Assembly (NCBI RefSeq): GCF_000407145.1
Contig: NZ_KE136474.1
Location: forward strand, 248,001-312,000
Direction: 5' to 3'
DNA: 64,000 bases
Origin: Enterococcus caccae ATCC BAA-1240
GTDB lineage: Bacteria > Bacillota > Bacilli > Lactobacillales > Enterococcaceae
The translations under genes were made by a program, and so were the position numbers. The notes below the pieces were generated by a model. The model was given only the letters and a program-made list of their open reading frames with translations. It was not told where the DNA came from and made no database searches. Of this stretch, positions 1,635-62,949 are shown piece by piece. Within the stretch, counting starts at the first letter, position 1. Each line of letters opens with the position of its first letter.

Positions 1635-2534
1635 CTATTTTTTCTTATATATTGGTCTGCGATTTTCTATTTCTAGTAAGAATTGCAGATAATTATCGTA
1701 ACGTGTCTGAGCGATCGTGCCAGCTTCTACACGACTTTTCACTTCGCAGCCTGGTTCTTTGCGATGCATACACTCGCGAAACTTACAAGATACCGAAGCT
1801 TCTACAAATTCAGGAAATTGTTTTGGCAATTCTGTTGTTTCCATTTCTAAAAAGTCTATCGAGCTAAATCCTGGGGTGTCAGCAACTAAACCATCGTATA
1901 AAGGTAATAATTCTACATGACGTGTTGTATGTTTCCCACGACCCAATGACTCTGAGATTTCATCAGTAGCTAACTGCAAATCAGGTGATATTTTGTTTAA
2001 TAAAGTAGATTTCCCGGCACCTGATTGTCCCATAAAAACAGTTAAGCGTTCAGGAAAATATTGTTCTAATGCTCGAACTGCTTCTTCGTCATTCGCTTTC
2101 GTTGCTGCAATAACTGGATAACCAATTTCTCCATAAACTTTTTTGACTTCAGCCACACTGACTGCTTCAGTTCCCGTCAGTAAATCGACCTTTGTCAAAT
2201 AAATAATTGGGGCAATTTCTTTATCTTCTAATGTAACTAAAAAGCGATCTAATAAATTATAAGAAAAGTTTGGTTCAACCATACTCATGACAACTACACC
2301 TTGATCAACATTTGCTACTGGCGGACGCACTAGCTCATTATGTCTAGGAAAGACTTCAAGTAAATAGCCATCCGTCGGGTTATCACTTTCAAACATGACT
2401 TCATCACCGACTAATGGAGTGATTTTGCGATTGCGAAAATTCCCACGCGCTCTGGTTTGAAATGTTGCACCCTCTGCATAAATGTAGTAAAAACCGCTTA
2501 ACGCTTTTCTGATTTGACCTTTCAGAAATGCCAC
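1635..2534 (-). CDS. rsgA: Ribosome small subunit-dependent GTPase A
   Basis: RsgA is a circularly permuted GTPase that checks late maturation of the 30S subunit. In order: an N-terminal OB fold, then permuted GTPase motifs LTKVDLL (G4), [12 protein letters not shown] (G1, residues near 168-179), DTPGFSS (G3), and a C-terminal zinc knuckle with C-x4-C...H...C in [14 protein letters not shown]. At 299 residues it is full length. The start is uncertain: the annotated GTG (2534) overlaps the GGAGGTGG ribosome binding site, so initiation could lie a few codons further in. It is followed by rpe after 13 bases. Confidence 0.95.
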
Positions 2535-2617
2535 CTCCTCGTTTCTGTTGGTTTCATTTTACCATAGGTTAGAGAAAAGCTAAACGCAAGGCTAGAGAAA
2601 TCAACATGATTTAAAAA

Positions 2618-2709
2618 AGTGTGTGGGACAAAAGTAAAAAGCACTTTTGTTTCACACACTAACTACAAATAAACGGTGGAAACAGAAGTAACCTCTTCTG
2701 TCCCATCCT
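2618..2709. repeat. Dispersed intergenic repeat, interrupted copy
   Basis: The 29 bases at 2618-2646, starting AGTGTGTGGGACAAAAG, are identical to 37668-37696, and CTTCTGTCCCATCCTC at 2694-2709 is identical to 37694-37709. In this copy 47 other bases separate the two halves; at 37.7 kb they are fused. The ends GGGACA and TGTCCC are complementary, so each copy can fold into a hairpin. It lies just downstream of the kinase gene and may act as its terminator. Confidence 0.7.
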
Positions 2710-2723
2710 CCTTAACTTATTTT

Positions 2724-4910
2724 CTAACTATTTCCATCACCTGTTGTGTCTGTTGCACTTGAAAAATTGACTGTAACAGATGTTCCTTTAGCAACACTAT
2801 CCCCAACGCTCGGCGATACACTGATTACTTTCCCTTTCGAAGCATCACCAGATCCTTGAATATACTTCAAACCGTTGCTTTCGATTTGTGCTTTAGCTTC
2901 TGCTGGTGAGAGCCCTATAACGTTTGGAACACTAACGTTACTCGGTCCAGAACTAACCTTTAATGTAATTTTTCCATTTTTGAGATCGAAGGTTGCTCCT
3001 GCACCAGGATCCTGTGAAATGACGGTTCCTTTAGGTAAATCACTGGATTCATCCACTCTTGAAATTTGATTTTGCTTAATTCCTAAACTGGTCAAAGCAT
3101 TTACAGCATTATCATACGTATAATTTTCGGCATAACTCCCTAAAACAACAGTGCTCGACTCAGAGCTTGTCGTTGTCGTTTTGTCAGGTCCAGAACTGAC
3201 TATTAGCGTAATCTTTCCTTTTTTAGGGTTAAACGGATTGCCTGCAGCTGGATTTTGTTCCATAACTAAATCCTTCGCTACTGTATCACTTGGTTTATCT
3301 ACCCGCGTGATTTGACTTCCTTTAATACCGTAACTTAATAATTCCGTTACTGCATCATTATAGCTATAGCCTAAGCTTGCATAATCAGCTAAATAGACAT
3401 CATCCGGGCCTTTGCTGACCACCAAAGTAATTTCATCTGTTTTTGGATCAACCTCTTCACCTTTTTCTGGCGATTGACTAATGACCTTGTCTTCATCTAC
3501 TTTAGAATCTGTCGCTTTCGTGATTTTAATTTGGCTTTCTTTGAAGCCTTGTTCTCCTAGCTTTCCGATGGCATCTTTATAACTTTCACCAGTAACATCC
3601 ACTAACTTGATTTTCTTATTTCCAGAACTGATATATAGTTCAATTTCACGATTTTTCTTTACAGTAGAACCCATCTCAGGATCTGTTTTGACTACTTTTC
3701 CTTCTTCGATGTCATCACTTTGTATTTGCTTTGACTCTGATTTAACTTTCAGGCCCGCTTCTTCTAGCATACTGCGTGCTTGTGTTTCGGTTTTATCTGC
3801 TACATTAGGTATTTTGACTTCGCTGCTGCCACGACCCGCAAAATAGAAAATACCAACAACGATCAAAACCAGTGCTAATAAGCTCAAAAAAATGATCCAT
3901 GGCTTCTTTTTTTTCTTCTTCGCAACAGCTTCTTGTTGCTCGATTTCTTCATGTTCATTCCGCTCTTCAGGTGGTGTTTCCATCGAATTGAAAGAAGAAG
4001 GCATCGCCATTTCATCCGTGATCGGGGTTAATATTTTTGTTTCGCCCATTAATCCCGTTGGTTGCCACTTTGGTTCGTTCAAACGGTTAGCAGCCAATAC
4101 GGTATATAAGTCACGTGACATTTCTTCAGCCGTTTTATAACGATCTGCTGGATCTTTAGCCGTTGCATGTAACACCACATTTTCCAAGGATTGAGGGATA
4201 TTAGGATCAATCGTTTTAACTGATGGCATTTCTTCTTGGAAATGTTTTAACGCGATCGTAACAGCTGATTCGCCATCAAATGGTACATTTCCAGTTAACA
4301 TCTCATATAAAATGATTCCAACTGCATAAACGTCTGACTGATTGGTCGCCATACTTCCGCGAGCTTGTTCTGGAGATAAATAATGGACAGAACCTAGCAT
4401 TGTATTTGTTTGCGTGATTGACGTTTCCGTTAAGGCAATTGCGATCCCAAAATCGGTGATTTTGACAACACCGCTTTCGTCCATCAAAATATTTTGTGGT
4501 TTTAAATCTCTATGAATGATTCTATGTTCATGCGCTAGTGAAACTGCTGATAAAATTTGCTCCATGATATCAACAATTTTTGCATATGGAATTGGATACT
4601 GCGTTTGGATAAATCGTTTTAGATCCATCCCTTTCACATACTCCATTACTAAGTATTGTAGACCATCTTCTTCACCTACATCATAGACACTGACGATATT
4701 TGGATGAACCAATTCAGTTGCAGCTAGAGCTTCTCTTTGAAAGCGGCGAATTGCTGCTTGATCATTTTGGAAGTCAAAACGCAATACTTTGACTGCTACA
4801 TCACGATCCAAAATCAAGTCATGTGCTAAAAACACATTCGCCATACCGCCACTGCCGATATTGCCAATAATGTGATATCGACCATTCAATTTTCTGCCGA
4901 TTTCGATCAT
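2724..4910 (-). CDS. prkC: PASTA-domain serine/threonine protein kinase (IreK/PrkC type)
   Basis: A membrane kinase of 728 residues that senses cell-wall precursors. The kinase domain covers about residues 10-270, with [10 protein letters not shown] catalytic loop, DFGIA, and an activation loop [12 protein letters not shown] rich in phosphorylatable threonines. A lysine-rich stretch precedes a single transmembrane helix near residues 338-360. Outside lie five PASTA repeats, two of them (third and fourth) starting with YNDAV/YDNAV and resembling each other closely. In E. faecalis the equivalent kinase IreK also has five PASTA units and drives intrinsic cephalosporin resistance; that role here is inference. 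Its ATG overlaps the end of the phosphatase gene by four bases. Confidence 0.95.
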
Positions 4911-5656
4911 TGGTTTTCCTCCTTCTGTTCATCAAAATGAATCACCAAGACAGTGATGTTATCCGCGCCACCTGCTTCATTGGCTGTCGCGATCAATGTT
5001 TCCACCTTTTCGTTTAGTGGCTCATCTGAAAGTAAAATAGTTAAAATATTCTCTTCTGAAACCATGTTTGTCAGCCCATCTGAGCATAGTAAGATATAGT
5101 CGTCAGGTACCCAAAGATGGTTCGCCACATCGACTTCCACCATTCGCGGCATCCCCAATGAACGAGTCAGGACATTTTTTCTTGGATGATTCGCAGCCAT
5201 TTCACGTGTAATTTCACCAGATTTTACTAGTTCATTTACTAAAGAATGATCTTCTGTTAGTTGGCGTAATTCATTGTTGCGAACCAAATAAGCTCGGCTG
5301 TCACCAATATTAGCCAATACAAATGACTGGTCTAATAATACCGCACTAACAATTGTCGTTCCCATACCTAAAAACTCAGGTCGAGATTGACCTTTTTCAT
5401 AAATCATCTCATTTTCATCTTGAATTTCTTTGATCAACCACTGTGCAGCTTTTTCCGATGTATCGATAAGACTTTTCTGCCAGCGTTCACCAAGATTATT
5501 GACCGCCATCTGACTAGCAACATCTCCCGCCTGATGACCACCCATTCCATCTGCTAAAATAGCTAAGGAAATTCCTGATTGGTTCTCAAATAAACCTGCA
5601 TAATCCTGATTGGTATTCCGTTTCCGTCCGACATCTGTTTGAAAATTGATTTCCAC
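4907..5656 (-). CDS. prpC: PP2C-family protein phosphatase (IreP/PrpC type)
   Basis: This 249-residue cytosolic metal-dependent phosphatase removes phosphate from the kinase encoded next to it and from its substrates. PP2C motifs are visible: GRKRNTNQD at residues 10-18, [15 protein letters not shown] near 35-50, [11 protein letters not shown], and [10 protein letters not shown], with the aspartates that bind two Mn2+ ions. It lies between rsmB (15 bases upstream) and the kinase gene (overlapping by four bases), the standard arrangement in Firmicutes. Confidence 0.95.
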
Positions 5657-5671
5657 TACGCTTCACCTCGT

Positions 5672-7036
5672 TTAACAAACTTTTTGCATACAACAAATAA
5701 AAAATCCATCCGTCCCTAATTGATGCGGGTACAGCGTGAGCATTTGATCCTGCACAGAGGGCTGAACAGCTTTACTAACACTCACATCTATTTTTTTAAA
5801 CTCTGGATGCTTTTGTAAAAATGCTGCAATAACTTCTTGATTTTCTTCTTTAGCAATCGTACAGGTGCTATAGACCATTATACCGCATTGTTTTAATGTT
5901 TTGGCAACACTTTCTAGAATTTCTAGTTGGATTTTAGGCAATTGTTCAAAATCTTGAGCCGATTTATTGTATTTGATATCTGGTTTACGACGCATTAGGC
6001 CTAGACCTGAGCATGGAGCATCTACTAAAATTCGATCGAAATATTCTGCTGGGAATTCTTCCCCCACTTTGCGAGCATCTAATTTTTCAGTATCCACAAC
6101 TTCTTTTACATGTAGACGCTCTGCATTTTGTTTGATTAGCTTGATTTTGTGGTCATGAATATCTAAAGACTTCACACGTCCACCTTGTGCCGCATCAAGA
6201 AACGTTGCGATATGTGTAGTTTTACCACCTGGAGCCGCACAAGCATCCAACACAACATGATTTTTTTCAATCTGCATTGCTGGTGCAACGAGCATTGAAC
6301 TTTCATCTTGAATCGTCAATTTACCAGCATCAAATAGATAATGCCCTGCCATAAAGCCTTTATCTGCGACTACACCATAAGGCGAAACTTGGCTGGCTGT
6401 TGCTTCGATATGATCTTTTTGCAACTCTTCTAATGCATCAGCTAGACTGATTTCACGGGTATCTACTCGACCACTAACATGACTTTTCTCAAAAAGCGAT
6501 AAGCCCAATTTTCTTGTTTCTTCCATCCCCAGTTGGTTAATTAGCTTTTCTGTCAACCATTTTGGCATACTGATTTCCACTGATAAACGTTCAACAGGAT
6601 CTTTGATGTTGTCTAAACTAGGTGCGCCTTCTCTTTGAAAAGCCCTAAGCACACCATTCACAAATTTTGCGATCCCAATATTCCCTCGGTGCTTCCCAAT
6701 TTCCACCGCTTCATTGATAATCGCATGGTCTGGAATTTTATCTAAAAATACTAATTGATAAATCGACAGACTAAGTAAATTTTTCACCCAACTGTCTACT
6801 TTTTTAGGGTTCGTAATGAACGGGGTCAAATAATATTCTAGTAACAGCTTTCGACTGATCGTACCATACACAAGTTCTGTGAATAGACGGCTGTCTTTTT
6901 CTCCTAATGCAGATTTATTGATCATTTCATTTAACAATAGATTGGAATAAGCTCCGCCATTATCCACACGTTCGATCGTTCTCAATGCTACATAACGAAC
7001 TGAACTTTTTACTCTTGCTGGTATTTTTTTTCCCAT
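5672..7036 (-). CDS. rsmB: 16S rRNA (cytosine-967-C5)-methyltransferase
   Basis: RsmB methylates C967 of 16S rRNA with S-adenosylmethionine. The 454-residue protein has an N-terminal NusB-like RNA-binding helical domain (about 1-140) and a C-terminal Rossmann methyltransferase domain. The SAM motif DACAAPGGKTTHIA and both catalytic cysteines, in DAPCSGLG and YSTCTI, are present. It follows fmt with only five bases between the two genes, so they are co-transcribed. Confidence 0.95.
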   Translation of the reverse strand: MGKKIPARVKSSVRYVALRTIERVDNGGAYSNLLLNEMINKSALGEKDSRLFTELVYGTISRKLLLEYYLTPFITNPKKVDSWVKNLLSLSIYQLVFLDKIPDHAIINEAVEIGKHRGNIGIAKFVNGVLRAFQREGAPSLDNIKDPVERLSVEISMPKWLTEKLINQLGMEETRKLGLSLFEKSHVSGRVDTREISLADALEELQKDHIEATASQVSPYGVVADKGFMAGHYLFDAGKLTIQDESSMLVAPAMQIEKNHVVLDACAAPGGKTTHIATFLDAAQGGRVKSLDIHDHKIKLIKQNAERLHVKEVVDTEKLDARKVGEEFPAEYFDRILVDAPCSGLGLMRRKPDIKYNKSAQDFEQLPKIQLEILESVAKTLKQCGIMVYSTCTIAKEENQEVIAAFLQKHPEFKKIDVSVSKAVQPSVQDQMLTLYPHQLGTDGFFICCMQKVC

Positions 7037-51602: not shown

Positions 51603-52559
51603 TCATTCCCCATAAATCCTCGACACCGTATATCTATTGATCAACGGCGTCAACAAGTTCATCACTAAAATCGCCACACCGATTCCACCAGGTAAGTCCA
51701 AACTAATTCTCAAGACAACTGCCAACACACCACAGCCGATCGCAAAAATATACTTCCCTTTATCCGTCAATGGTGAAGTCGTATAATCTGTCACCATAAA
51801 GACTGCAGCAAAAATCAATGCGCCACTCAGCAAATGAGCACTAGCAAATGAAAAATCAAACCCGCTATATAACAGAATTGCGCTATAAAATGAGCCTAAT
51901 GTTAGAACAGGAACCAACGGATTGATGATTTTACGTGCAATCAAATAAACAGCTGATAAAAGTAACGCAAACTTACACGTCTCTCCAATCGGTCCACCTA
52001 AACCATACCCCATAAACAACTCAAACAAATCTGGTGTCGTGGGTGAAACCTCTCTAGCAAAATTGCCTAAATCAGCTAATGGTGTTGCTGTTGCGACAAC
52101 ATCTGGTTGCGGTGTGACCCAGTTCGTGATCCACGGTGAGAAAAATAATTTCAATAATACACGAGCTGCCACAGCTGGGTTCAACCAATTTCTGCCGATC
52201 CCGCCAGTCAACTGCTTTACAACAATAATCGCAATAAAGTCTCCAATAAGCAATGTCCATAATGGCGCTGTCACAGGCAATGTCAAAGCCAAAAGCCAAC
52301 CTGTAATCACCGCACTATAATCCGTTATCGTCACTTTTTTGTGAACTATTTTCTGAAAAGAAAATTCCAACCCTACACAGGTAACAATACTTACCACTAC
52401 CATTACTAATGACCACCAGCCAAAAAAGTACGTAGCGGCAATCGTTGGAAATGCTAAAGCAATCAACACTTGCTGCATGATCCACTGAGAGGTCCATTTT
52501 TCTCTAATATGAGGGCCCATAAATGGTCCCGTACTTGTATACTCTTTATTTACCATCAT
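51603..52559 (-). CDS. rnfD: RnfD/NqrB-like membrane flavoprotein subunit
   Basis: The 318-residue protein resembles RnfD of the Rnf ferredoxin:NAD+ oxidoreductase. It has about nine or ten transmembrane helices, GGIGRNWLNPAVAARVLL (family Asn-Pro motif, near 119-136), DVVATATPLAD at 153-163 whose Thr-159 matches the residue that carries covalent FMN in RnfD (normally SGATPL), and VTDYTTSPLTDKGKYIF near the end. It overlaps rnfC by four bases. No rnfA, B, E, G or apbE gene is in the window, so the pair is not a classical Rnf operon. Partner proteins are unknown. Confidence 0.88.
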   Translation of the reverse strand: MMVNKEYTSTGPFMGPHIREKWTSQWIMQQVLIALAFPTIAATYFFGWWSLVMVVVSIVTCVGLEFSFQKIVHKKVTITDYSAVITGWLLALTLPVTAPLWTLLIGDFIAIIVVKQLTGGIGRNWLNPAVAARVLLKLFFSPWITNWVTPQPDVVATATPLADLGNFAREVSPTTPDLFELFMGYGLGGPIGETCKFALLLSAVYLIARKIINPLVPVLTLGSFYSAILLYSGFDFSFASAHLLSGALIFAAVFMVTDYTTSPLTDKGKYIFAIGCGVLAVVLRISLDLPGGIGVAILVMNLLTPLINRYTVSRIYGE

Positions 52560-53845
52560 CGACTCTCCAATACTTTTTGCTTTGCCGCTCGGATATCACC
52601 TAAAATATCGATTTTTGACGGACAAATATACGAACATGCGCCACAATCAATACAGTTCAACACACCTAAGCGTTTTGCTTCTTCAATATCACCTGCTCGA
52701 TACGCATTACTGATAGAGATCGGTTGTAAATTGACGGGACATGCATTCACGCACTCTGAACAGCGAATACAATTTTGTTCTTCGGGAATTTTCGCCTCTT
52801 CTCTAGTCAACGCAAGAATCAACGAAGTTGTTTTTGTGACTGGTTCATCTAAATTTTGAATCACTTTCCCCATCATCGGTCCGCCATTAATCAATTTCAT
52901 CGGGCTTTCAATAAAACCGCCGCACGCTTCAATGACATGTTCGATCGGTGTGCCGATTCTCACACGTAAGTTTTGAGGCGTCTTGATTGGTGTACCAGAA
53001 ACCGTCACAACTCGATCGATCAATGGTCGATTTTCTTTCAATGCATGAAATGTTGCCAATAACGTAGACACATTCATGATCCCAACATTTAAATCAATCG
53101 GTAATTTTCCTACTGGCAGTTCTGTTCCAAGGACCGCTTTCATAACGATCTTTTCAGCGCCTTGAGGATAGTGATTCGGCAATATTTTCAGTTTGATACG
53201 GTCATTATCGATCTTAGCATTTAGTTTTTGGATAGCTTCTTCCGATGAACTTTCGATTGCAATCACACATTGTTTGATTGATAGCATTTCTTGAAGCAGA
53301 CTGATCCCTTCGATAAACTCATTCAGCTGCTCAATGATAATTCGTCTATCAGCCGTAACAAAAGGTTCACACTCGACCGCGTTAACGATCAACGTTTCCA
53401 TCTTCTGGTGTTCTTTGAAAAGAAATTTTACATCTGTTGGAAAACCAGCTCCGCCCATGCCGACAATTCCGTTGTTTTTAATGATATCAACTATGTTTTC
53501 ATTCCCTGATTGTGGTATTTCATATGTATCTTTAAAATCATTTTTGATGACTACAACGGACACTTCGTTTACTCCAATGATTCTTTGCTCAATTTTTTCA
53601 ACAGTTCCTGAAACTGAGCTATGTATGTTTGCTGAAATCAAGCCATCTTTTGCTCCGATCAACGTTCCTATTTTCACTTCTTGACCAATGGAAACAACAA
53701 TTTTTGCAGGTTTACCGATATGCATATTCATTGGTAAAATAATCTGCTTGGGAGCACTTAGTTCTGTGATTGATTCTAGCTTGGTTAACCACTTATTTTT
53801 GGGAACCATAACACCGCCAAGCTTTCTTTTCATTCTAAAAAACAT
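52556..53845 (-). CDS. rnfC: RnfC-like NADH- and iron-sulfur-binding subunit
   Basis: The 429-residue peripheral protein has an N-terminal barrel-sandwich region, the nucleotide/FMN-binding glycine motif GIVGMGGAGFPTDVKFLF near 125-145, a SLBB domain near 280-330, and two 4Fe-4S motifs: CIRCSECVNACP (359-370) and CIDCGACSYICP (398-409). It should take electrons from NADH and pass them to the membrane subunit RnfD encoded next. A 30-residue membrane protein gene lies 36 bases upstream. GGAAGGA precedes the ATG. Confidence 0.9.
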   Translation of the reverse strand: MFFRMKRKLGGVMVPKNKWLTKLESITELSAPKQIILPMNMHIGKPAKIVVSIGQEVKIGTLIGAKDGLISANIHSSVSGTVEKIEQRIIGVNEVSVVVIKNDFKDTYEIPQSGNENIVDIIKNNGIVGMGGAGFPTDVKFLFKEHQKMETLIVNAVECEPFVTADRRIIIEQLNEFIEGISLLQEMLSIKQCVIAIESSSEEAIQKLNAKIDNDRIKLKILPNHYPQGAEKIVMKAVLGTELPVGKLPIDLNVGIMNVSTLLATFHALKENRPLIDRVVTVSGTPIKTPQNLRVRIGTPIEHVIEACGGFIESPMKLINGGPMMGKVIQNLDEPVTKTTSLILALTREEAKIPEEQNCIRCSECVNACPVNLQPISISNAYRAGDIEEAKRLGVLNCIDCGACSYICPSKIDILGDIRAAKQKVLESR

Positions 53846-55310: not shown

Positions 55311-55513
55311 GAGGACCTCCACTTTCTTTTACTGAACAATAGTTTCCTTATAAATAGTAGTCACTTTTTCGAAATAAATCAAGTGATTTTTGCATTCTGT
55401 TATCATTTAGTAATAATCAGCTTATCTTTTTATCAAAATAACAACATCTTAGAAAAAAGTTTGTCTATTTACAGCATTTTTACTAGTTCCTTCGAGTATC
55501 TCTCACTTTCGTA

Positions 55514-56230
55514 TTATCTTGTTCCTAATTCGAGCCAGCGTTGATTATTTAGCTTAGCGATAATCATACTTATAATCGCTATGACAAGTATATATATAAA
55601 GACCATTAAGTTATCCTCAGTCCCAAGAAATACGCTGCTACTTTCTAAAAAATCTCCAACTTTTCCATACAATTCATTTGAAGCATCAAAAATGGCAAAC
55701 AAGCGTAGCGCTCCCCCAAACGACACAAATACAACTGTGAGAATCCAATAAAGCAAGCTGAATCCAATGGATAATAATATATTCGTCATTAACAAACTAA
55801 TCAAAGCAACAATCACTATATATTGAATTGCGACCATGGAAAATAGGAAAAACATTTGAAAAAAAACTGAGAAGTCTTTAAACAACGCTGAAATAATCAA
55901 AAGTGTACTAAAAATTATTCCCACTGTCTCAATAATCAAGGTCAAAACCTTTTTACTATAAAAAGTAAGACTTGTATCATTCATCATTCGATAAAATAAA
56001 ATAGTTTTTCCTGAGTATTCTTTGTTGATAAAAAATGCTACCAAAAAGGCAAACATCAAAAAACCAAATTGTGTAAATACAGTATATGTGCTAAACAAGT
56101 ACTCACGATACGTCAGGCTACTTACTTTATCAATTCCAACCGGCAAGATCCAACCCATTATAAATGTCGCGAGTATCACAGCTAGTAAAACAAATATTAT
56201 CTTATTCGATATAGTTCTTTTTATTTCCAC
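55514..56230 (-). CDS. yydJ: ABC transporter permease of the epipeptide operon (YydJ-like)
   Basis: A 238-residue membrane protein with six predicted transmembrane helices, equivalent in size and position to B. subtilis YydJ. With the ATPase encoded just upstream it should export the mature peptide or protect the producer from it. I chose the GTG at 56230 (MEIKRTISNKIIFVLLA), seven bases after AGGGG; the frame could extend to a TTG at 56245, which overlaps the ATPase gene. It is the last gene of the operon; no obvious terminator is seen in the 190 bases before prs. Confidence 0.85.
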   Translation of the reverse strand: MEIKRTISNKIIFVLLAVILATFIMGWILPVGIDKVSSLTYREYLFSTYTVFTQFGFLMFAFLVAFFINKEYSGKTILFYRMMNDTSLTFYSKKVLTLIIETVGIIFSTLLIISALFKDFSVFFQMFFLFSMVAIQYIVIVALISLLMTNILLSIGFSLLYWILTVVFVSFGGALRLFAIFDASNELYGKVGDFLESSSVFLGTEDNLMVFIYILVIAIISMIIAKLNNQRWLELGTR

Positions 56231-56234
56231 TTCA

Positions 56235-56867
56235 TCACCCCTCAATATATGCTGCTATAACGTCATCTTGCTGTTCAAAACTTGTCATTTTCAACTCTTC
56301 AATCAGATAGTAATTTCCACCTAAATTTTTCAAATCTGACAAATTATGTGTAATATTTAAAATAAATTTTTCTGGTTGCTCCGCAACATATTCTTTTAAA
56401 AATAGATAGATGTCATTTATGGTCTGTTTGTCCAGAGCATTTGTGATCTCATCAAAAACTATAATTGATTTATCTTCTAATAAGAATGACAATAATTTTA
56501 ATTTTTGTTTTTGCCCATCGCTCAACTGTCCAATCAATGTATCCATTGATATATTTTCAATATGTAGAGAATCAGCTAAATGTTCTACAGGATTTACCCC
56601 AAAACGTTTTTTCAAAATCTTTATTAATTCTTTGCCACTCAAATCATTAGGTACATTAGAAAAACTTGAAATAATCGTAACATTATCGCTTATTTCGGGT
56701 GTTATTAACCCACTCATGTTTAGCAGTAGATCTTTTGCAAACTGTGATTTTCCTACACCATTTTTTCCTAGTATATGACTGATTTGCCCTTTAGCAAACG
56801 AAAAATTAGTATTTTCCAACAACACTTTATTTTTCACTTGCAAATTATAGTTATTAAATGTTAACAA
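56235..56867 (-). CDS. yydI: ABC transporter ATP-binding protein of the epipeptide operon (YydI-like)
   Basis: The 210-residue ATPase has Walker A GKNGVGKS at 34-41, the signature LSDGQKQKLKLL in place of LSGGQ, and Walker B with SIIVFDEITNALD. Length matches YydI of B. subtilis (209). The start is TTG (56867), preceded by GAGGTGAT. It lies 11 bases after the protease gene and four before the permease gene. Role: energises export of, or immunity to, the epimerised peptide. Confidence 0.88.
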   Translation of the reverse strand: MLTFNNYNLQVKNKVLLENTNFSFAKGQISHILGKNGVGKSQFAKDLLLNMSGLITPEISDNVTIISSFSNVPNDLSGKELIKILKKRFGVNPVEHLADSLHIENISMDTLIGQLSDGQKQKLKLLSFLLEDKSIIVFDEITNALDKQTINDIYLFLKEYVAEQPEKFILNITHNLSDLKNLGGNYYLIEELKMTSFEQQDDVIAAYIEG

Positions 56868-56878
56868 AATACATCACC

Positions 56879-57631
56879 TCACAAAAACCAACTAATAACT
56901 GTCCAAATTGCCAACAAAATACTGAGACCTTGTATCGTTTTTACAATCATGTGGTTTTTTCTCTTATTATCTAATTCATCTATATTAAATAGTGTAATCA
57001 AGACCTTATATCCATCTGAGTTTAATATGGGAAGTAAGTTCCATAGCAATGCATATGAAAAGAAAATAAACGCGCTATCAATCGTTTTACTACTAAAAAA
57101 TAAAAGATTAAGTACCTGAAATAGGTTGATGATCACATAGTTAGTAATTACTCCTGCAAGATGAACAACTATTTTTTCAGTTTTAGCTAAAAGATAAACC
57201 TCATTCATTTCTACATAAACTGCTGGAAACACATAATAATTCAACTTGAAGCCTATTTTTTGATGTTTTCTCCCCATATAGTTTAAAGCCTTTATATGCC
57301 CGATTTCATGTGTACATATATTAAACAAAAGATACCCCACTAAAAACAGGTAGGCTAAATAGTCGCTAATAGGTATCGCTTGAATACTAACATCCGCATG
57401 CTTTACTAAAATAAAATTGCCAATAAGTAAAAATGCAAACAAAAAAATAAAGACTGCAAAAGACAACCCACGAATTTTGGGAACATACTCTTTTAATGAA
57501 CTTAGTATAGACGTTGGTAAGTTATCAATTTCATTTTTAAAATACACATTGTTCTCGATATCTTTTATAAATACATGCTCTTCAACAAATATTTCATATT
57601 CGTTATCTTTATATTTATAACATTTGCTCAT
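56879..57631 (-). CDS. yydH: M50-type membrane metalloprotease of the epipeptide operon (YydH-like)
   Basis: The 250-residue protein has a soluble N-terminus (1-55) and about five or six transmembrane helices. CTHEIGH (106-112) is the zinc-binding HExxH, and NLLPILNSDGYK (198-209) supplies the distant Asp, as in site-2 proteases. In B. subtilis YydH occupies the same place and is thought to cut the leader from the modified peptide. GAGGGAA lies before the ATG, and the gene overlaps the radical SAM gene by 17 bases. Confidence 0.88.
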   Translation of the reverse strand: MSKCYKYKDNEYEIFVEEHVFIKDIENNVYFKNEIDNLPTSILSSLKEYVPKIRGLSFAVFIFLFAFLLIGNFILVKHADVSIQAIPISDYLAYLFLVGYLLFNICTHEIGHIKALNYMGRKHQKIGFKLNYYVFPAVYVEMNEVYLLAKTEKIVVHLAGVITNYVIINLFQVLNLLFFSSKTIDSAFIFFSYALLWNLLPILNSDGYKVLITLFNIDELDNKRKNHMIVKTIQGLSILLAIWTVISWFL

Positions 57632-58574
57632 AATATTCCCTCATATAAGGTGTAAACAATTTGATATTCTCTTCTGACTTAAATAATTGACGGCAAATAG
57701 TACAAATAGAGGAAAAATGTTCTTCAATTTGTATATGAGAAAATTCTTGATTGCTCATAACAATCTCAATAAACCATCTAAACCCTTCTTTTCTCATGAT
57801 ATACAACAAAAGATTAGCATTCATTTTCTCAATTGTTTTATCAAAGCTTTGGCAAGCTCTATCATTCAAAATCAGAGCGGTATCAAAAACTGCTGGTGAA
57901 CAACACGGATAGACATTCCCATCAAAATGGTACACAGGTTCATAACCAGGACATTCTAACTGTTCAAGATTATCAATTGAATAGATTTTTTGAAACTCAC
58001 TATCAGCCATGTTTTCAGCTTCACCAACTGCTATTAGCGGATATTTTGTCAGTGGTATCCCTAAAGCTGCTTCATCCAATTCCTCTATGACTTTATTTCC
58101 CATATTACTCTTACTTACAGCAATATTTACAACAACTCGTATAGATGGATATTTTCTACTTTCTTCTAAAATATTTTTTATACAATCCGTCTTGACAAAT
58201 TTTGCATGAAAATCATCATGGCTAATTGAAAGGTTAGTTACACCTAATTCCTTCATATCCTTAAAATATATCTTAACCTTTTCAACGTTCGCTCCCCAAA
58301 ATCCATTTGAAATCAATGTACTTTTTTTCCCACAGGAATGAACGATTTCTAACAACTCTTTCAAAAAGGAATAATTCAAAAAAATTTCTCCTCCAGTAAA
58401 AGAAATTACTTTTATCTTCAAGTTATTTGAAAAACTTTTCACTAGTTCAATGATTTCACTTTTTTCCATAGATGTCTTTTTACTTGGAGAACAGGAAAAG
58501 CAGCAATGCTCACATGTTGCATTGCATCGAGCCCCTAAATTTATTACTACACTTTCATACAAATACGTCACCAT
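57615..58574 (-). CDS. yydG: Radical SAM peptide epimerase (YydG-like)
   Basis: The enzyme is predicted to convert L-residues of the precursor peptide to D-residues by abstracting the alpha hydrogen. At 319 residues it equals B. subtilis YydG. The radical SAM cluster motif CxxxCxxC is at Cys17, 21 and 24 (RCNATCEHCC); SFTGGEIFLNY (58-68) follows; YPCCSP (222-227) lies where the H-donor Cys223 of YydG is reported; a C-terminal CTIC (291-294) may help hold a second cluster. The ATG at 58574 has no binding site; TTG 58562, with AGGATGG eight bases upstream, would give MYESVVINLGARC, closer to the family N-terminus. Confidence 0.92.
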   Translation of the reverse strand: MVTYLYESVVINLGARCNATCEHCCFSCSPSKKTSMEKSEIIELVKSFSNNLKIKVISFTGGEIFLNYSFLKELLEIVHSCGKKSTLISNGFWGANVEKVKIYFKDMKELGVTNLSISHDDFHAKFVKTDCIKNILEESRKYPSIRVVVNIAVSKSNMGNKVIEELDEAALGIPLTKYPLIAVGEAENMADSEFQKIYSIDNLEQLECPGYEPVYHFDGNVYPCCSPAVFDTALILNDRACQSFDKTIEKMNANLLLYIMRKEGFRWFIEIVMSNQEFSHIQIEEHFSSICTICRQLFKSEENIKLFTPYMREYYEQML

Positions 58575-58604
58575 CCTATTATCACTACAACAATCACATG
58601 AATA

Positions 58605-58655
58605 AAAATTGAACAGATTTCAATTGAAAAATTCAAATGAAATCTGTTCAATTTT
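58605..58655 (-). terminator. Hairpin between precursor and epimerase genes (partial terminator)
   Basis: AAAATTGAACAGATTTCA (58605-58622) and its exact complement (58638-58655) form an 18-bp stem; inside the loop TTGAA and TTCAA can pair further. On the minus strand TTTTTATT follows. It sits 31 bases after the yydF stop and about 31 bases before yydG, so it should end most transcripts and let some through. Confidence 0.85.
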
Positions 58656-58685
58656 GCTAGATAGATGTACAGAAAATACCAGTAA

Positions 58686-58805
58686 TTATCTACCAGAGCC
58701 TGCAATCCAAGCTCCACTTGATGATTTAACAAAGTACCACAGATCATTGACCTTAGCTAGCTTTTCTGACTTTTCAACCAACTCTTTCATTTCTAATTCT
58801 TTCAT
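58686..58805 (-). CDS. yydF: YydF-type epipeptide precursor
   Basis: A 39-residue peptide: leader MKELEMKELVEKSEKLAKVN, then DL, and core WYFVKSSSGAWIAGSGR. GGAGGAG lies five bases before the ATG. It closely matches the end of B. subtilis YydF, which has KLAKVNDLWYFVKS followed by RWILGSGH. In that peptide Val36 and Ile44 become D-Val and D-allo-Ile; here Val26 and Ile34 have the same neighbours and the same spacing of eight. The last 17 residues equal the length of the known mature product. The four genes downstream are the matching epimerase, protease and ABC pair. Product is expected to act on cell membranes; that is inference from the family. Confidence 0.93.
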   Translation of the reverse strand: MKELEMKELVEKSEKLAKVNDLWYFVKSSSGAWIAGSGR

Positions 58806-58830
58806 GAGAACTCCTCCATTGTGTTATTTT

Positions 58831-58845
58831 TCACATTTTTTGTGA
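58831..58845. promoter_or_regulatory. Inverted repeat in the yydF leader
   Basis: TCACA-TTTTT-TGTGA lies between the -10 box and the ribosome binding site of yydF, about where transcription starts. It could be an operator for a local or global regulator; no regulator gene is adjacent. Confidence 0.4.
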
Positions 58846-58852
58846 TGATTTC

Positions 58853-58881
58853 ATTTTAGCAAGAATAGCGTTTTTTGTAAA
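58853..58881 (-). promoter_or_regulatory. Promoter of the yyd operon
   Basis: On the minus strand TTTACA (58881-58876), 17 bases, TAAAAT (58858-58853): five of six bases match the consensus in each box. The leader to the ATG is about 40 bases. Confidence 0.75.
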
Positions 58882-59058
58882 TAAGTTCTTACAATAAAAA
58901 TGAAACAATCGTCAATAATACCCGCAAACGAATTATAATGTAACGATTCTTTATACACTACACAATTTCATCTTTTCAAACTTTCAAGTCGACTATTAAC
59001 TACATTATCTAATGACAAGTTAACATATATATATTATTATTATGAATAGCACGACATA

Positions 59059-59073
59059 ATGAAAACGCATTCC
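59059..59073. promoter_or_regulatory. cre-like site upstream of the 5'-nucleotidase gene
   Basis: ATGAAAACGCATTCC matches WTGAAARCGYTTWNN with one mismatch, 102 bases before the start codon. It may couple nucleotidase expression to carbon supply. Confidence 0.5.
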
Positions 59074-59175: not shown

Positions 59176-62100
59176 GTGAAAAAGTCAGTTTTGAAAAAAG
59201 TACAACTTTGGGTACAGGTTTTGATGGTTTCAACTTTACTAGTAGGTACAAGTGCAACAACTGCTTTAGCGATTGAAAATACGCTTAGTAGTGAAACACC
59301 AACCAACGAATTAGCTAGTCCGGAAAGTTCGACTGTTTCAAGTACAGCTCGAAATGAAAACGATAACATTCAACCTTCAACAGCTACATCAATCGAAACA
59401 CCGCAAAAATTAACGATTTTAGGCACCTCTGATGTCCATGGTCAGCTATGGGACTGGTCTTATGAAGATGATAAGCAAACGCCCGTTGGCTTGTCTCAAG
59501 TCAGTTCTGTCGTCCAAAATATCCGTTCAGAAAACCCTAATGGTACAATTCTGATTGACAATGGAGATATGAACCAAGGAACAATATTAACAGATGATCT
59601 TTACAATAAAACACCTTTGATCGAGAAACCAAATCCGATGATCAAAGCAATGAACTATATGAAATATGATGCCATGGTGTTGGGGAACCATGAATTTAAC
59701 TTTGGACTAGATTTAATCAAAAAACTCAAAAGCGAAGCTGAATTTCCAATTTTATCAGCGAATACTTATGTCAAAGAATCAAATAAGCGCTTTGTTGGCG
59801 GAACAACAAAAAAAGATATTGATTTGGACGGTGATGGCATCAAAGACTTAACTGTCGGCATCATCGGACTAACCACACCACAAATTCCATTATGGGATGG
59901 CGCAAAAGTAGACAGCTTGTATTTCAATCCATTGAGAGAAGAAGCAGAAAAAGCGGTAGCTGAATTAAAAGATGAAACTGATATCATCATCGCTTCGATG
60001 CATGCTGGACGTCAAAGCTCTGATCCTGCTGCGAGTGCAGATCAAGTCATCACTAATGTCGCTGGCATCGACGCCTATATTTTAGGACACGATCATCGCT
60101 CTTTCGCAGAGAAAATTCAAGGACCAAATGGACTTGTTCCTGTGGCGGGACCTAAAGATACTGGAACTGAAATGATCAAAATCGAACTTGATATTGAAAA
60201 ATCAGCCGACAAATGGCAAGTAAAAAATAGCGATGCCGCTATCGTAAGTACTAAAACCGTTCCAGCAGATGAAGCATTAAAAGCTGAAACAAAAGAATAT
60301 CATGATAAAACAAGAGAATTTATTTCAGAAAAAATTGGAACAGCTACTGATGATTTTTTACCTGCTGAGGAAGTAAAAGGCATTCCAGAAGCTCAGCTTC
60401 GACCTACTGCAATGATTTCACTGATCAATAATGTACAGCGAAAAGCAACTGGTGCACAACTTGCTGCTTCTGCACTCTTTAAAGCAGACAGTAAATTAAA
60501 TGCAGGAAATATTTCTTATTCCAATATTTTTGATATTTATAAATACCCTAATACACTAGTCAGTGTCAATATCACTGGAGAAAATCTACTGGAATACATG
60601 GAAAATCAGGCGGATTACTACAATACACCTGGTCCTGATGATTTAACGATCAGTTTTAACGAAAAAATTCGGGTATATAACTATGATGTCTTCTCTGGAA
60701 TTTCTTATAAAATCGATATTTCTAAACCACATGGTGAGCGTATTATCAATCCAACAATTGACGGAAAACCTGTTGATCCTAAGGCAAATTATACGATTGC
60801 TATGAATAATTACCGCTACGAAGGTCTATTGACCCAAGGTCTTGTGGTAGGTGAACCAATCAAGTCTACTGATCCTGAAACATTGCGTGGATTGATTGCC
60901 GATTATATCCGTGAAAAACAAACGCTTGATCCAGCTCAAGAAATCGAACATAACTGGGAAGTGATCGGCTATCATTTTAATAACAACTGGCGGAAATTAG
61001 CTGTACAGTTAGTGAATGATGGTACATTGCAGACTCAACCAGCCGCAGACGGTCGTACCCCGAACGTTAAACCGATCACGAAACAAGATGTGCGCAATGC
61101 TGGTTACGCTCCAGACTCAGAAACATTTACGATCATGCATACCAACGATGTTCACGGACGATTAGAAGGAAACGGCAAAGATGTTTTAGGTTCGGCACGT
61201 TTGAAAACGTATAAAAACGTGATCAATCCAGATCTCTTGATCGATGCAGGAGATTCATTTCAAGGCTTACCGATTTCTAATTTCTCCAAAGGCAAAGATA
61301 TGGTCAAAGTGATGAATGAAGTGGGCTACGATGCCATGGCTGTTGGAAATCATGAATTTGATTTTGGCTTAGACACAGCATTAGAATATAAAGACGAGTT
61401 AAATTTCCCAATCCTATCAAATAATACCTTTAAGGATGGAAAATTAGTCTTTGAGCCCTCTACAATCGTTGAAAAAGGTGGCAATAAATACGCAATTATC
61501 GGCGTAACTACACCTGAAACGGCGACAAAAACACATCCAAACAATGTAGTTGGTGTGACTTTTGCTGATCCAATCGCTGAAACAAAAAAAGCCATCCAAA
61601 CAATCAAAGACTCTGGAGAAACAATCACTGCCTATGTTGTTACTGGACACTTAGGTATCGATGAAACAACCCCACATGAATGGCGTGGCGATACTTTGGC
61701 AGAGACACTAAGCAAAGAATTTCCCGATTTGAATATAACCGTTTTAGATGGACATTCTCATACAGCTGTTGATGGCGGAAAACAATTTGGAAATGTGATG
61801 TACACTCAAACAGGGAATTATTTGAATAATGTCGGTTTAGTAAATGTTGATTTAACAGACCTTAGCAAAAAAACGGCTTCATTAACCCCTGCAGAAACAT
61901 TAGCAGATTTAGAAGAAGATCCTGCTGTTAAAGCTTTAGTTGACCAAGCCAGAGCAAATTTTGAAGCATGGGGTTCAGAAGTTGTCATTGAAAATAACCC
62001 TTACCAATTTAACGGTGAGCGTGACAATGTACGGACTAGAGAAACGAATCTAGGCAATCTGATTGGCGATGCTATGTTCGCTTACGGGCAGCACGGTTTT

Positions 62101-62949
62101 AAAAATCAAGCTGATTTCGCAGTAACAAATGGTGGCGGTATTCGTGCAAATATCGAACCTGGAAAAGTAACATTAGGTGATGTCATAGCTGTAATGCCTT
62201 TTGGTAACAGTATCTCTCAAATTAAAGTGACAGGTGCTGAGGTCAAAGAAATGTTTGAGCTTTCGCTGCGTTCAATGGCTCAAAAAGACGAAAACGGCAA
62301 GATCATTTTAGATGACTACAACCAACCTAAACTTGGCGCAAATGGTGGATTCCTCCATGTTTCAAGCACGATTCGTGTCCACTATGATTCAACGAAAAAA
62401 GGCTCACTACTACCAGCAGACGAAGGCAATGGTACGGACAAAACCATCGTCGGTGAACGAATCTTACAAATCGAAGTTCAAGACCGTACGACTGGAAAAT
62501 TTGCACCAATCGATGAAAAAGCAACTTATCATATGGCCACGAATGATTTCCTAGCTGCAGGCGGTGACGGTTATGATATGTTAGGCGGCGAACGTGAAGA
62601 AGGACCTTCTTTAGACACAGTCTTGATCAATCATTTAAAACAAGCGACAAACATTCGTCTATACGATGCCGCAACAAATATTGATTTAGCACAATACAAA
62701 GAAGCCTTTCCAGGCGAACGAATCATTTCCATCTCAGAAGCTGAATTTAATAAGAAAAATAAACCTGTACCAGATCCAAAAGATCCAACGAAATCAGATG
62801 AGATAAAAGCGGCTAAACCTGCCGGAAAAACAGCAGATTATCCAAAAATGGGTGAAACAATCATGGCTTATGGCAGTTTAGGCTTACTTGTTATTGGATT
62901 TTCTGGTTATGGTTTTTATGAATATAATCGTAAACGGAAAATTGGATAA
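59176..62949 (+). CDS. Cell-surface double 5'-nucleotidase / 2',3'-cyclic phosphodiesterase
   Basis: A 1257-residue exported enzyme with two metallophosphoesterase/5'-nucleotidase modules in tandem. Signal peptide about 1-32 (ending TTALA). Module 1: TILGTSDVHGQLW, IDNGDMNQG, LGNHEFNFGLD, LGHDHRSF. Module 2 (from about 650): TIMHTNDVHGRLEG, IDAGDSFQG, VGNHEFDFGLD, DGHSHTA, and the C-terminal nucleotidase domain with TNGGGIRANIEPG and MPFGNS. It should release phosphate and nucleosides from extracellular nucleotides. Near the end ADYPKMGE, a membrane helix and tail NRKRKIG look like a sorting signal, but the pentapeptide YPKMG departs from LPXTG. Start is GTG with AAGGAGGA. Confidence 0.9.
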   Translation: MKKSVLKKVQLWVQVLMVSTLLVGTSATTALAIENTLSSETPTNELASPESSTVSSTARNENDNIQPSTATSIETPQKLTILGTSDVHGQLWDWSYEDDKQTPVGLSQVSSVVQNIRSENPNGTILIDNGDMNQGTILTDDLYNKTPLIEKPNPMIKAMNYMKYDAMVLGNHEFNFGLDLIKKLKSEAEFPILSANTYVKESNKRFVGGTTKKDIDLDGDGIKDLTVGIIGLTTPQIPLWDGAKVDSLYFNPLREEAEKAVAELKDETDIIIASMHAGRQSSDPAASADQVITNVAGIDAYILGHDHRSFAEKIQGPNGLVPVAGPKDTGTEMIKIELDIEKSADKWQVKNSDAAIVSTKTVPADEALKAETKEYHDKTREFISEKIGTATDDFLPAEEVKGIPEAQLRPTAMISLINNVQRKATGAQLAASALFKADSKLNAGNISYSNIFDIYKYPNTLVSVNITGENLLEYMENQADYYNTPGPDDLTISFNEKIRVYNYDVFSGISYKIDISKPHGERIINPTIDGKPVDPKANYTIAMNNYRYEGLLTQGLVVGEPIKSTDPETLRGLIADYIREKQTLDPAQEIEHNWEVIGYHFNNNWRKLAVQLVNDGTLQTQPAADGRTPNVKPITKQDVRNAGYAPDSETFTIMHTNDVHGRLEGNGKDVLGSARLKTYKNVINPDLLIDAGDSFQGLPISNFSKGKDMVKVMNEVGYDAMAVGNHEFDFGLDTALEYKDELNFPILSNNTFKDGKLVFEPSTIVEKGGNKYAIIGVTTPETATKTHPNNVVGVTFADPIAETKKAIQTIKDSGETITAYVVTGHLGIDETTPHEWRGDTLAETLSKEFPDLNITVLDGHSHTAVDGGKQFGNVMYTQTGNYLNNVGLVNVDLTDLSKKTASLTPAETLADLEEDPAVKALVDQARANFEAWGSEVVIENNPYQFNGERDNVRTRETNLGNLIGDAMFAYGQHGFKNQADFAVTNGGGIRANIEPGKVTLGDVIAVMPFGNSISQIKVTGAEVKEMFELSLRSMAQKDENGKIILDDYNQPKLGANGGFLHVSSTIRVHYDSTKKGSLLPADEGNGTDKTIVGERILQIEVQDRTTGKFAPIDEKATYHMATNDFLAAGGDGYDMLGGEREEGPSLDTVLINHLKQATNIRLYDAATNIDLAQYKEAFPGERIISISEAEFNKKNKPVPDPKDPTKSDEIKAAKPAGKTADYPKMGETIMAYGSLGLLVIGFSGYGFYEYNRKRKIG

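Follow-up and report, generated by a model that had tools for sequence, protein, structure and literature searches.

An epipeptide operon of the yydFGHIJ/epeXEPAB type predicted in Enterococcus caccae

The operon yydFGHIJ (epeXEPAB) of Bacillus subtilis is the closest described counterpart of the genes reported here. According to the available portions of the published work, the precursor YydF is epimerised at Val36 and Ile44 (PMC5808125, PMC8326336). The spacer between the precursor and epimerase genes was described as carrying a terminator structure with two FsrA sites flanking it; under iron limitation, expression of the epimerase is increased by FsrA (PMC12871923). The transporter EpeAB is described as an autoimmunity transporter (PMC7614699, PMC12871923). 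Epipeptide clusters of enterococci have already been published (PMC8326336). Among the partly available papers on YydF, epeXEPAB or epipeptides and Enterococcus, we recognised none that describes the operon of Enterococcus caccae or lone epipeptide transporters in enterococci. The locus analysed here lies in a window of 64,000 nucleotides from E. caccae ATCC BAA-1240 (contig NZ_KE136474.1, positions 248,001 to 312,000 of the forward strand), and all coordinates refer to this window.

Five genes run along the minus strand from 58805 to 55514. Based on the sequence and the list of open reading frames (ORFs), they encode a precursor peptide, a radical S-adenosylmethionine (SAM) protein, an M50-like protease, and the ATPase and the permease of an ATP-binding cassette (ABC) transporter. 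We consider it highly probable (roughly 0.93) that the segment 55514-58805 is a complete and intact five-gene operon of the yydFGHIJ/epeXEPAB type. It is predicted to make and export the 17-residue peptide WYFVKSSSGAWIAGSGR, in which Val26 and Ile34 are likely epimerised and which likely acts against the membranes of competitors. All five products exceed the curated cut-offs of epipeptide-specific NCBIfam models: the precursor scores 84.1 bits with TIGR04077 (cut-off 35, E 4.7e-24), the radical SAM protein 492.8 bits with TIGR04078, ‘YydG family radical SAM peptide epimerase’ (cut-off 300), the protease 332.7 bits with NF058609 (cut-off 225), the ATPase 309.4 bits with NF058610 (cut-off 240) and the permease 306.5 bits with NF058605 (cut-off 270). 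These family scores, that of the precursor together with those of the four other genes, rule out a chance ORF. In Pfam, Radical_SAM and ABC_tran were found above cut-off. Judged from its sequence, the operon is real and complete, and it is probably functional. It is of a known kind, to which E. caccae adds one member: NCBIfam holds a model for each gene, Enterococcus rotai has a close homologue and enterococcal clusters are in print. The features of the locus are as follows.

58853-58881, minus strand: candidate promoter, TTTACA, 17 nt and TG-extended TAAAAT (10/12 match), a suggestion only
58811-58817, minus strand: ribosome-binding site GGAGGAG of the precursor gene, read from the sequence
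58686-58805, minus strand: epipeptide precursor (yydF/epeX type) of 39 amino acids, with a predicted 22-residue leader and a 17-residue core, WYFVKSSSGAWIAGSGR (TIGR04077; alignment with 17 other precursor rows)
58605-58655, minus strand: hairpin followed by a T run between the precursor and radical SAM genes, a possible partial terminator or processing site (folding)
57615-58574, minus strand: radical SAM peptide epimerase (YydG/EpeE) of 319 amino acids (TIGR04078; PDB 8ai1; conserved cysteines)
56879-57631, minus strand: M50-like membrane metalloprotease (YydH/EpeP) of 250 amino acids, HEIGH at 108 and NSDG at 204 (NF058609; motifs)
56235-56867, minus strand: ABC transporter ATPase (YydI/EpeA) of 210 amino acids, Walker A GKNGVGKS and signature LSDGQ (NF058610; motifs)
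55514-56230, minus strand: ABC transporter permease (YydJ/EpeB) of 238 amino acids with six hydrophobic segments (NF058605; hydropathy)
55391-59003, strand not applicable: inserted segment, approximate at either end, between prs and the region upstream of the nucleotidase gene (flank comparison)

The radical SAM and protease genes overlap by 17 nt, and gaps of 11 nt and 4 nt separate the protease from the ATPase gene and the ATPase from the permease gene. For the permease, the GTG at 56230 is favoured over the longer TTG frame of 243 amino acids in the ORF list, because position 1 of NF058605 aligns there. A preliminary description of this stretch had proposed a YydF-type operon, and its account of the layout was confirmed. 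The 39-residue ORF is present at 58686-58805 on the minus strand (MKELEMKELVEKSEKLAKVNDLWYFVKSSSGAWIAGSGR), GGAGGAG lies at 58817-58811, five bases ahead of the ATG, and proteins of 319, 250, 210 and 238 residues follow in the order of yydFGHIJ. That the precursor belongs with YydF was borne out by the TIGR04077 score (84.1 bits against 35). Placement of the radical SAM protein in another subfamily by a profile search had been named beforehand as a possible refutation; the search returned TIGR04078 (492.8 bits against 300) and did not refute the proposal. The precursor gene had been called easily missed, which suits its short length, although NCBIfam holds a model that detects it. With five NCBIfam cut-offs passed, a match to YydG structures and conserved cysteines, the interpretation as an epipeptide operon holds as homology.

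Upstream of the ATG of the precursor gene, no in-frame ATG, GTG or TTG occurs before a TAA. TIGR04077 is the only NCBIfam family that matches the precursor at E values up to 1, and a comparison with PDB chains gave nothing with E < 0.5. Related precursors bear the precomputed Pfam label PF27801, and the Pfam search gave no PF27801 report for the E. caccae precursor. Residues 1-39 align with positions 11-49 of TIGR04077, so that the published Val36 and Ile44 (model positions 36 and 44) correspond to Val26 and Ile34, which the preliminary description had named as the epimerised residues. These residues are positions 4 and 12 of the predicted core, which, as in B. subtilis, comprises 17 residues starting with WYFVKS, and the class-typical WYFVKS...W-I pattern was found in the alignment. 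The leader is shorter than that of B. subtilis (22 versus 32 residues; the latter as given in the available text of PMC8326336).

Comparisons with B. subtilis YydF were made through the TIGR04077 model and the protein P0062 (29 amino acids), whose core we take to be subtilis-like. As claimed earlier, the core of E. caccae departs from the YydF type: it differs from P0062 at six of 17 residues, including Arg to Ala before Trp and the final His to Arg. The net charge, counting Lys, Arg, Asp and Glu only, is +2 in both cores. To place these differences, we used an alignment of 18 rows, some of them near-duplicates, which comprised E. caccae, 14 database proteins and the precursors of the operons L038, L039 and L044; that of L040 was omitted, being the same protein as that of L044. 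NRW, GRW or SRW was observed in 8/18 rows, with a His end in seven of the eight and P0061 one residue short. Nine rows (E. caccae and P0064-P0071) carry GAW or GSW, and none of these ends with His. Since eight other database precursors have such a core, the core changes are a trait of a sub-group and not peculiar to the E. caccae strain; a different target range, as the preliminary description had suggested, is thus no more than a possibility. Within the sub-group, the last residue is Arg in E. caccae but Lys, Asn, Glu or Gly in the others. E. caccae carries Val and Ile at the two epimerisation sites, whereas P0066 and P0067 carry Ile at the first and P0071 carries Val at the second. The group includes P0070 from Paenibacillus amylolyticus. 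Not all members of the group have a short leader: longer N-termini are predicted for P0064, P0065 and P0069. A further protein, P0072, has its first 29 residues in common with P0065 and is then out of frame. This precursor, on a 1-Mb contig, keeps the conserved first half and loses the frame after it, so that an epipeptide is probably not made by this strain; there are intact relatives.

Residues 7-317 of the radical SAM protein align with the solved YydG/EpeE of B. subtilis (PDB 8ai1, E 9.5e-113), one of six matching entries (8ai1 and five more) with three distinct chain sequences. Cysteines 17, 21, 24, 25, 208, 224, 225, 291 and 294 align with all nine cysteines of B. subtilis YydG (P0021). 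The CxxxCxxC motif, the further presumed cluster cysteines and the proposed hydrogen-donor cysteine are thus all present in the E. caccae enzyme. Cys223 of EpeE, the proposed hydrogen donor (PMC8326336, available text), corresponds to Cys225. The donor is printed as Cys 233 in the available text of PMC5808125, and P0021 has no cysteine at 233. The nearest named protein is YydG of E. rotai (P0004, 86% identical). At E<=1e-40 the protein collection holds 58 relatives, that of E. caccae included, 38 of which were used for a tree (partial and near-identical proteins were among the 20 omitted; the partial P0011 was kept). The E. caccae enzyme groups with that of E. rotai and two others (support 97/98) within a group of 11 rows (97/96), and a separate group of 12 holds B. 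subtilis and the staphylococci (100/100); outside its Bacilli part, the tree carries a long-branch warning. A scan of genome contigs gave a single, distant radical SAM protein (24% identity).

The operon is flanked by prs on one side and by a large nucleotidase gene on the other. The G+C content of the segment is 30.2% compared to 36.8% in the 64-kb window. Across 22 genomes of the genus, the radical SAM gene was found at E<=1e-20 in E. caccae alone. In 16 of the 21 others the prs and nucleotidase flanks are 201-450 bases apart, compared to 3769 in E. caccae. In the remaining five genomes the prs flank alone was located, and the nucleotidase gene lies further along in two of them (L010 and L020). 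Of the 16 genomes with the short empty site, 15 share a conserved stretch at about 59004-59071, which lies upstream of the nucleotidase gene. Weak matches at 58838-58880 in three relatives make the right end of the insert uncertain. In the ORF list there is no integrase frame between the flanks. These data support a gain of about 3.6 kb in the E. caccae lineage, loss in all others being less simple. Given the 86% identity to E. rotai, the gain may predate the species E. caccae.

Beyond the genus, the precursor model was above cut-off in 1/105 genomes of the family, 1/395 sampled in the order and 4/398 sampled in the class, each count including the E. caccae genome. An order-wide precursor match in genome G169 (24.8 bits, below cut-off, with two stop codons) was judged a chance match and not counted. 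Across the phylum, TIGR04078 matched 258/398 genomes at E<=0.001 and was above cut-off in one, E. caccae; the sub-cut-off matches were taken for general radical SAM proteins. Carriage by phages was not supported: phage records gave no match at E 1e-10, and one viral contig gave a 36% match to residues 11-76 only. In 72,556 plasmid records the radical SAM gene was found twice (E<=1e-30), both times in macrococci (NZ_CP092173.1 and NZ_CP065730.1). These plasmids carry the five genes in the same order as E. caccae. They differ in being typed mobilizable, with the operons near recombinase or integrase genes, and in having 51-residue precursors with NRW cores; their radical SAM proteins are 51-53% identical to that of E. 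caccae. Genome G985, from a different class of the phylum, has a locus (L070, C1:1095500-1101500, at 2510-5438) where a distant YydG-like radical SAM match extends over two frames (29-33% identity). Behind it come a protease distantly similar to YydH and, judged by eye, an ABC ATPase; the locus possibly represents a relative class with an unknown precursor.

The 111-nt spacer between the precursor and epimerase genes folds at -31.2 kcal/mol (z -5.5), and none of 200 shuffles was as stable. Hairpins were also found in the spacers of the five other operons that were folded (L007, z -7.1; L044, -5.9; L040, -5.2; L038, -2.3; L039, -5.7), which makes 6/6 with E. caccae. For L039, the first 136 of about 300 nt were folded and gave two hairpins; L040 and L044 are almost identical in sequence. 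A structured spacer is therefore common to the operons folded, as it is shared with B. subtilis. That the hairpin acts as a terminator is a guess. Two Rfam matches on the hairpin, mir-29 (32.8 bits, gathering threshold 46.7) and MIR2863 (25.9 bits, threshold 94), were rejected as hairpin look-alikes.

To consider how a producer would protect itself, we compared the host with B. subtilis. The PspA/LiaH family (PF04012) gave no match in the one E. caccae genome, in a search that was positive in 9/14 controls including B. subtilis. LiaF (PF09922) was found in that genome (1/1), and the two genes after liaF resemble what we take to be its sensor kinase and response regulator. In the accounts available, B. 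subtilis resists added peptide mainly via LiaIH, and EpeAB confers partial immunity or autoimmunity (PMC7026026, PMC7614699, PMC12871923). With a LiaF match but no PspA/LiaH match, self-protection in E. caccae is probably more transporter-based than in B. subtilis.

Transporter genes of this type were also found apart from the toxin genes. Eight plasmid records of Staphylococcus epidermidis match the ATPase and permease, with no radical SAM match (E<=1e-30) in any of them. In the two that were opened (L042, 5434-7288; L043, 5683-7288), only C-terminal pieces of the protease precede the ATPase and permease genes; for one of the two, both proteins were tested and were above cut-offs. In the family, the permease is present in 2/105 genomes, that of E. 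caccae and one of another genus (G095). In the latter (L068, C1:447500-456500, at 4560-6166) the permease is above the NF058605 cut-off and the ATPase above that of NF058610 but short at its end. The two genes stand directly behind a precursor relic with in-frame stops, which matches weakly (E 0.015) and was recognised by its NRWIAGSVH end; this 9-kb stretch gave no match to the radical SAM protein or the protease. In Enterococcus faecalis (NZ_CP143580.1; L006, 5020-5730), a lone YydJ-type permease is above cut-off and 67% identical to that of E. caccae; the 10.6-kb stretch that holds it gave no match to an ATPase, a protease, an epimerase or a precursor. Transporters without toxin genes fit a role in resistance, and survival of a producer was reported for B. 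subtilis isolates that carry the immunity genes at least (PMC7614699, available text). Remnants of decay also fit, above all in E. faecalis, where no ATPase was found. We put forward only tentatively, as a doubtful though possible reading, that YydIJ/EpeAB is a portable resistance module kept after the loss of the toxin genes. In hosts without LiaH such as E. caccae, it would be the main immunity to the short-leader epipeptide group that lacks the Arg-Trp pair and the C-terminal His.

For the operon itself, the following sequence of events is proposed by analogy with B. subtilis. The 39-residue precursor would be translated, after which the radical SAM enzyme would remove the alpha hydrogen from Val26 and from Ile34. 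Cys225 would return a hydrogen from the other face to give D-Val and D-allo-Ile, as can be expected from EpeE and the conserved residues. The membrane protease may then cut before Trp23 and free the core. The ABC transporter, if it resembles EpeAB, would protect the producer and perhaps also export the peptide. The spacer hairpin might hold back transcripts or steer processing, so that much precursor and little enzyme is made.

Several points weigh against this interpretation or parts of it. Production and epimerisation of the peptide are inferred from homology. In the available text of a refactoring study in Escherichia coli, no tested epipeptide cluster yielded modified peptide (PMC9576775). 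Pfam gives no above-cut-off model for the precursor, the protease (PF02163, 21.8 versus 27.2 bits) or the permease. Unlike the eight RW-type precursors, the core has no Arg before Trp, and it is without the terminal His of seven of these, so its activity could differ. The deletion of yydIJ in B. subtilis was reported to leave the minimal inhibitory concentration of added peptide unchanged, whereas deletion of liaIH cut it almost three-fold (PMC7026026, available text), which speaks against the ABC transporter as the main defence. Among the five other spacers a clear T run after the hairpin is present only in L038, and a scan for consensus terminators did not list the hairpin at 58605-58655; the terminator reading is thus weak. 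Promoter-like sites occur in the region about as often as in shuffles (22 versus a mean of 21.9), which leaves the promoter at 58853-58881 as a suggestion.

Three other explanations were weighed. An epimerised peptide might be made for signalling or sibling control instead of the killing of competitors. The short name of TIGR04077, ‘expor_sig’, and the label ‘signaling protein’ given to the relative P0070 in one source fit such a role, and the B. subtilis peptide EPE has been called a cannibalism toxin (PMC12871923) and an inducer of LiaRS (PMC7026026) in the texts available. On the other hand, the operon encodes an immunity-type transporter, and added YydF was reported to kill B. subtilis through membrane permeabilisation (PMC7026026, available text), so that we regard a purely regulatory purpose as unlikely. 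The operon might also be silent or decaying and kept in few strains. Its rarity would agree with this (the radical SAM gene in 1/22 genomes of the genus, the precursor in 1/105 of the family), as would the decay of relatives, namely P0072, out of frame after its conserved half, and the broken precursor and transporter of G095. However, all five frames are open and of full length, the catalytic motifs are intact, and the ribosome-binding site and hairpin are present; a silent or decaying E. caccae copy thus appears quite improbable.

Assignment to another class of radical SAM peptides, i.e. proteusins, sactipeptides or ranthipeptides, has next to nothing to recommend it. Proteusin epimerases likewise target Val and Ile residues (PMC8326336, available text), and the radical SAM protein weakly matches many families (49 in total, the best 25 of which were examined). 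Besides TIGR04078, none of the matches listed exceeds 43.1 bits, the cut-offs being 180 or higher. There is no Cys among the 39 residues of the precursor, and a thioether to the precursor, as in sactipeptides and ranthipeptides, is not possible. A proteusin is opposed by the leader of 22 residues, which is not of the long nitrile-hydratase type, by TIGR04077 as the sole NCBIfam match of the precursor and by the TIGR04078 enzyme. The yydFGHIJ/epeXEPAB reading of the operon is preferred. The analysis adds to the known systems an intact epipeptide operon in Enterococcus whose insertion site is located, together with the GAW/GSW sub-group, the shared structured spacer and the contrast of a host without LiaH and transporters retained without toxin genes. 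If active, the peptide would offer a natural variant with which to test what core residues epimerisation and membrane damage require, in a host that has no match to LiaH, the protein that B. subtilis depends on. With the toxin-less transporter genes of other hosts, the role of EpeAB can be tested directly.

Two neighbouring regions of the window were also inspected. The nucleotidase gene beyond the insert (59176-62949) encodes a surface nucleotidase-like protein of 1257 residues with two metallophosphatase-type halves and, by eye, an LPxTG-like YPKMG end; 14 NCBIfam models match it, none above cut-off (best 769 versus 1050 bits). At 51603-53845, adjoining genes encode electron transport subunits of the RnfD type (TIGR01946, 251.0 bits) and the RnfC type (TIGR01945, 456.5 bits), both above cut-off.

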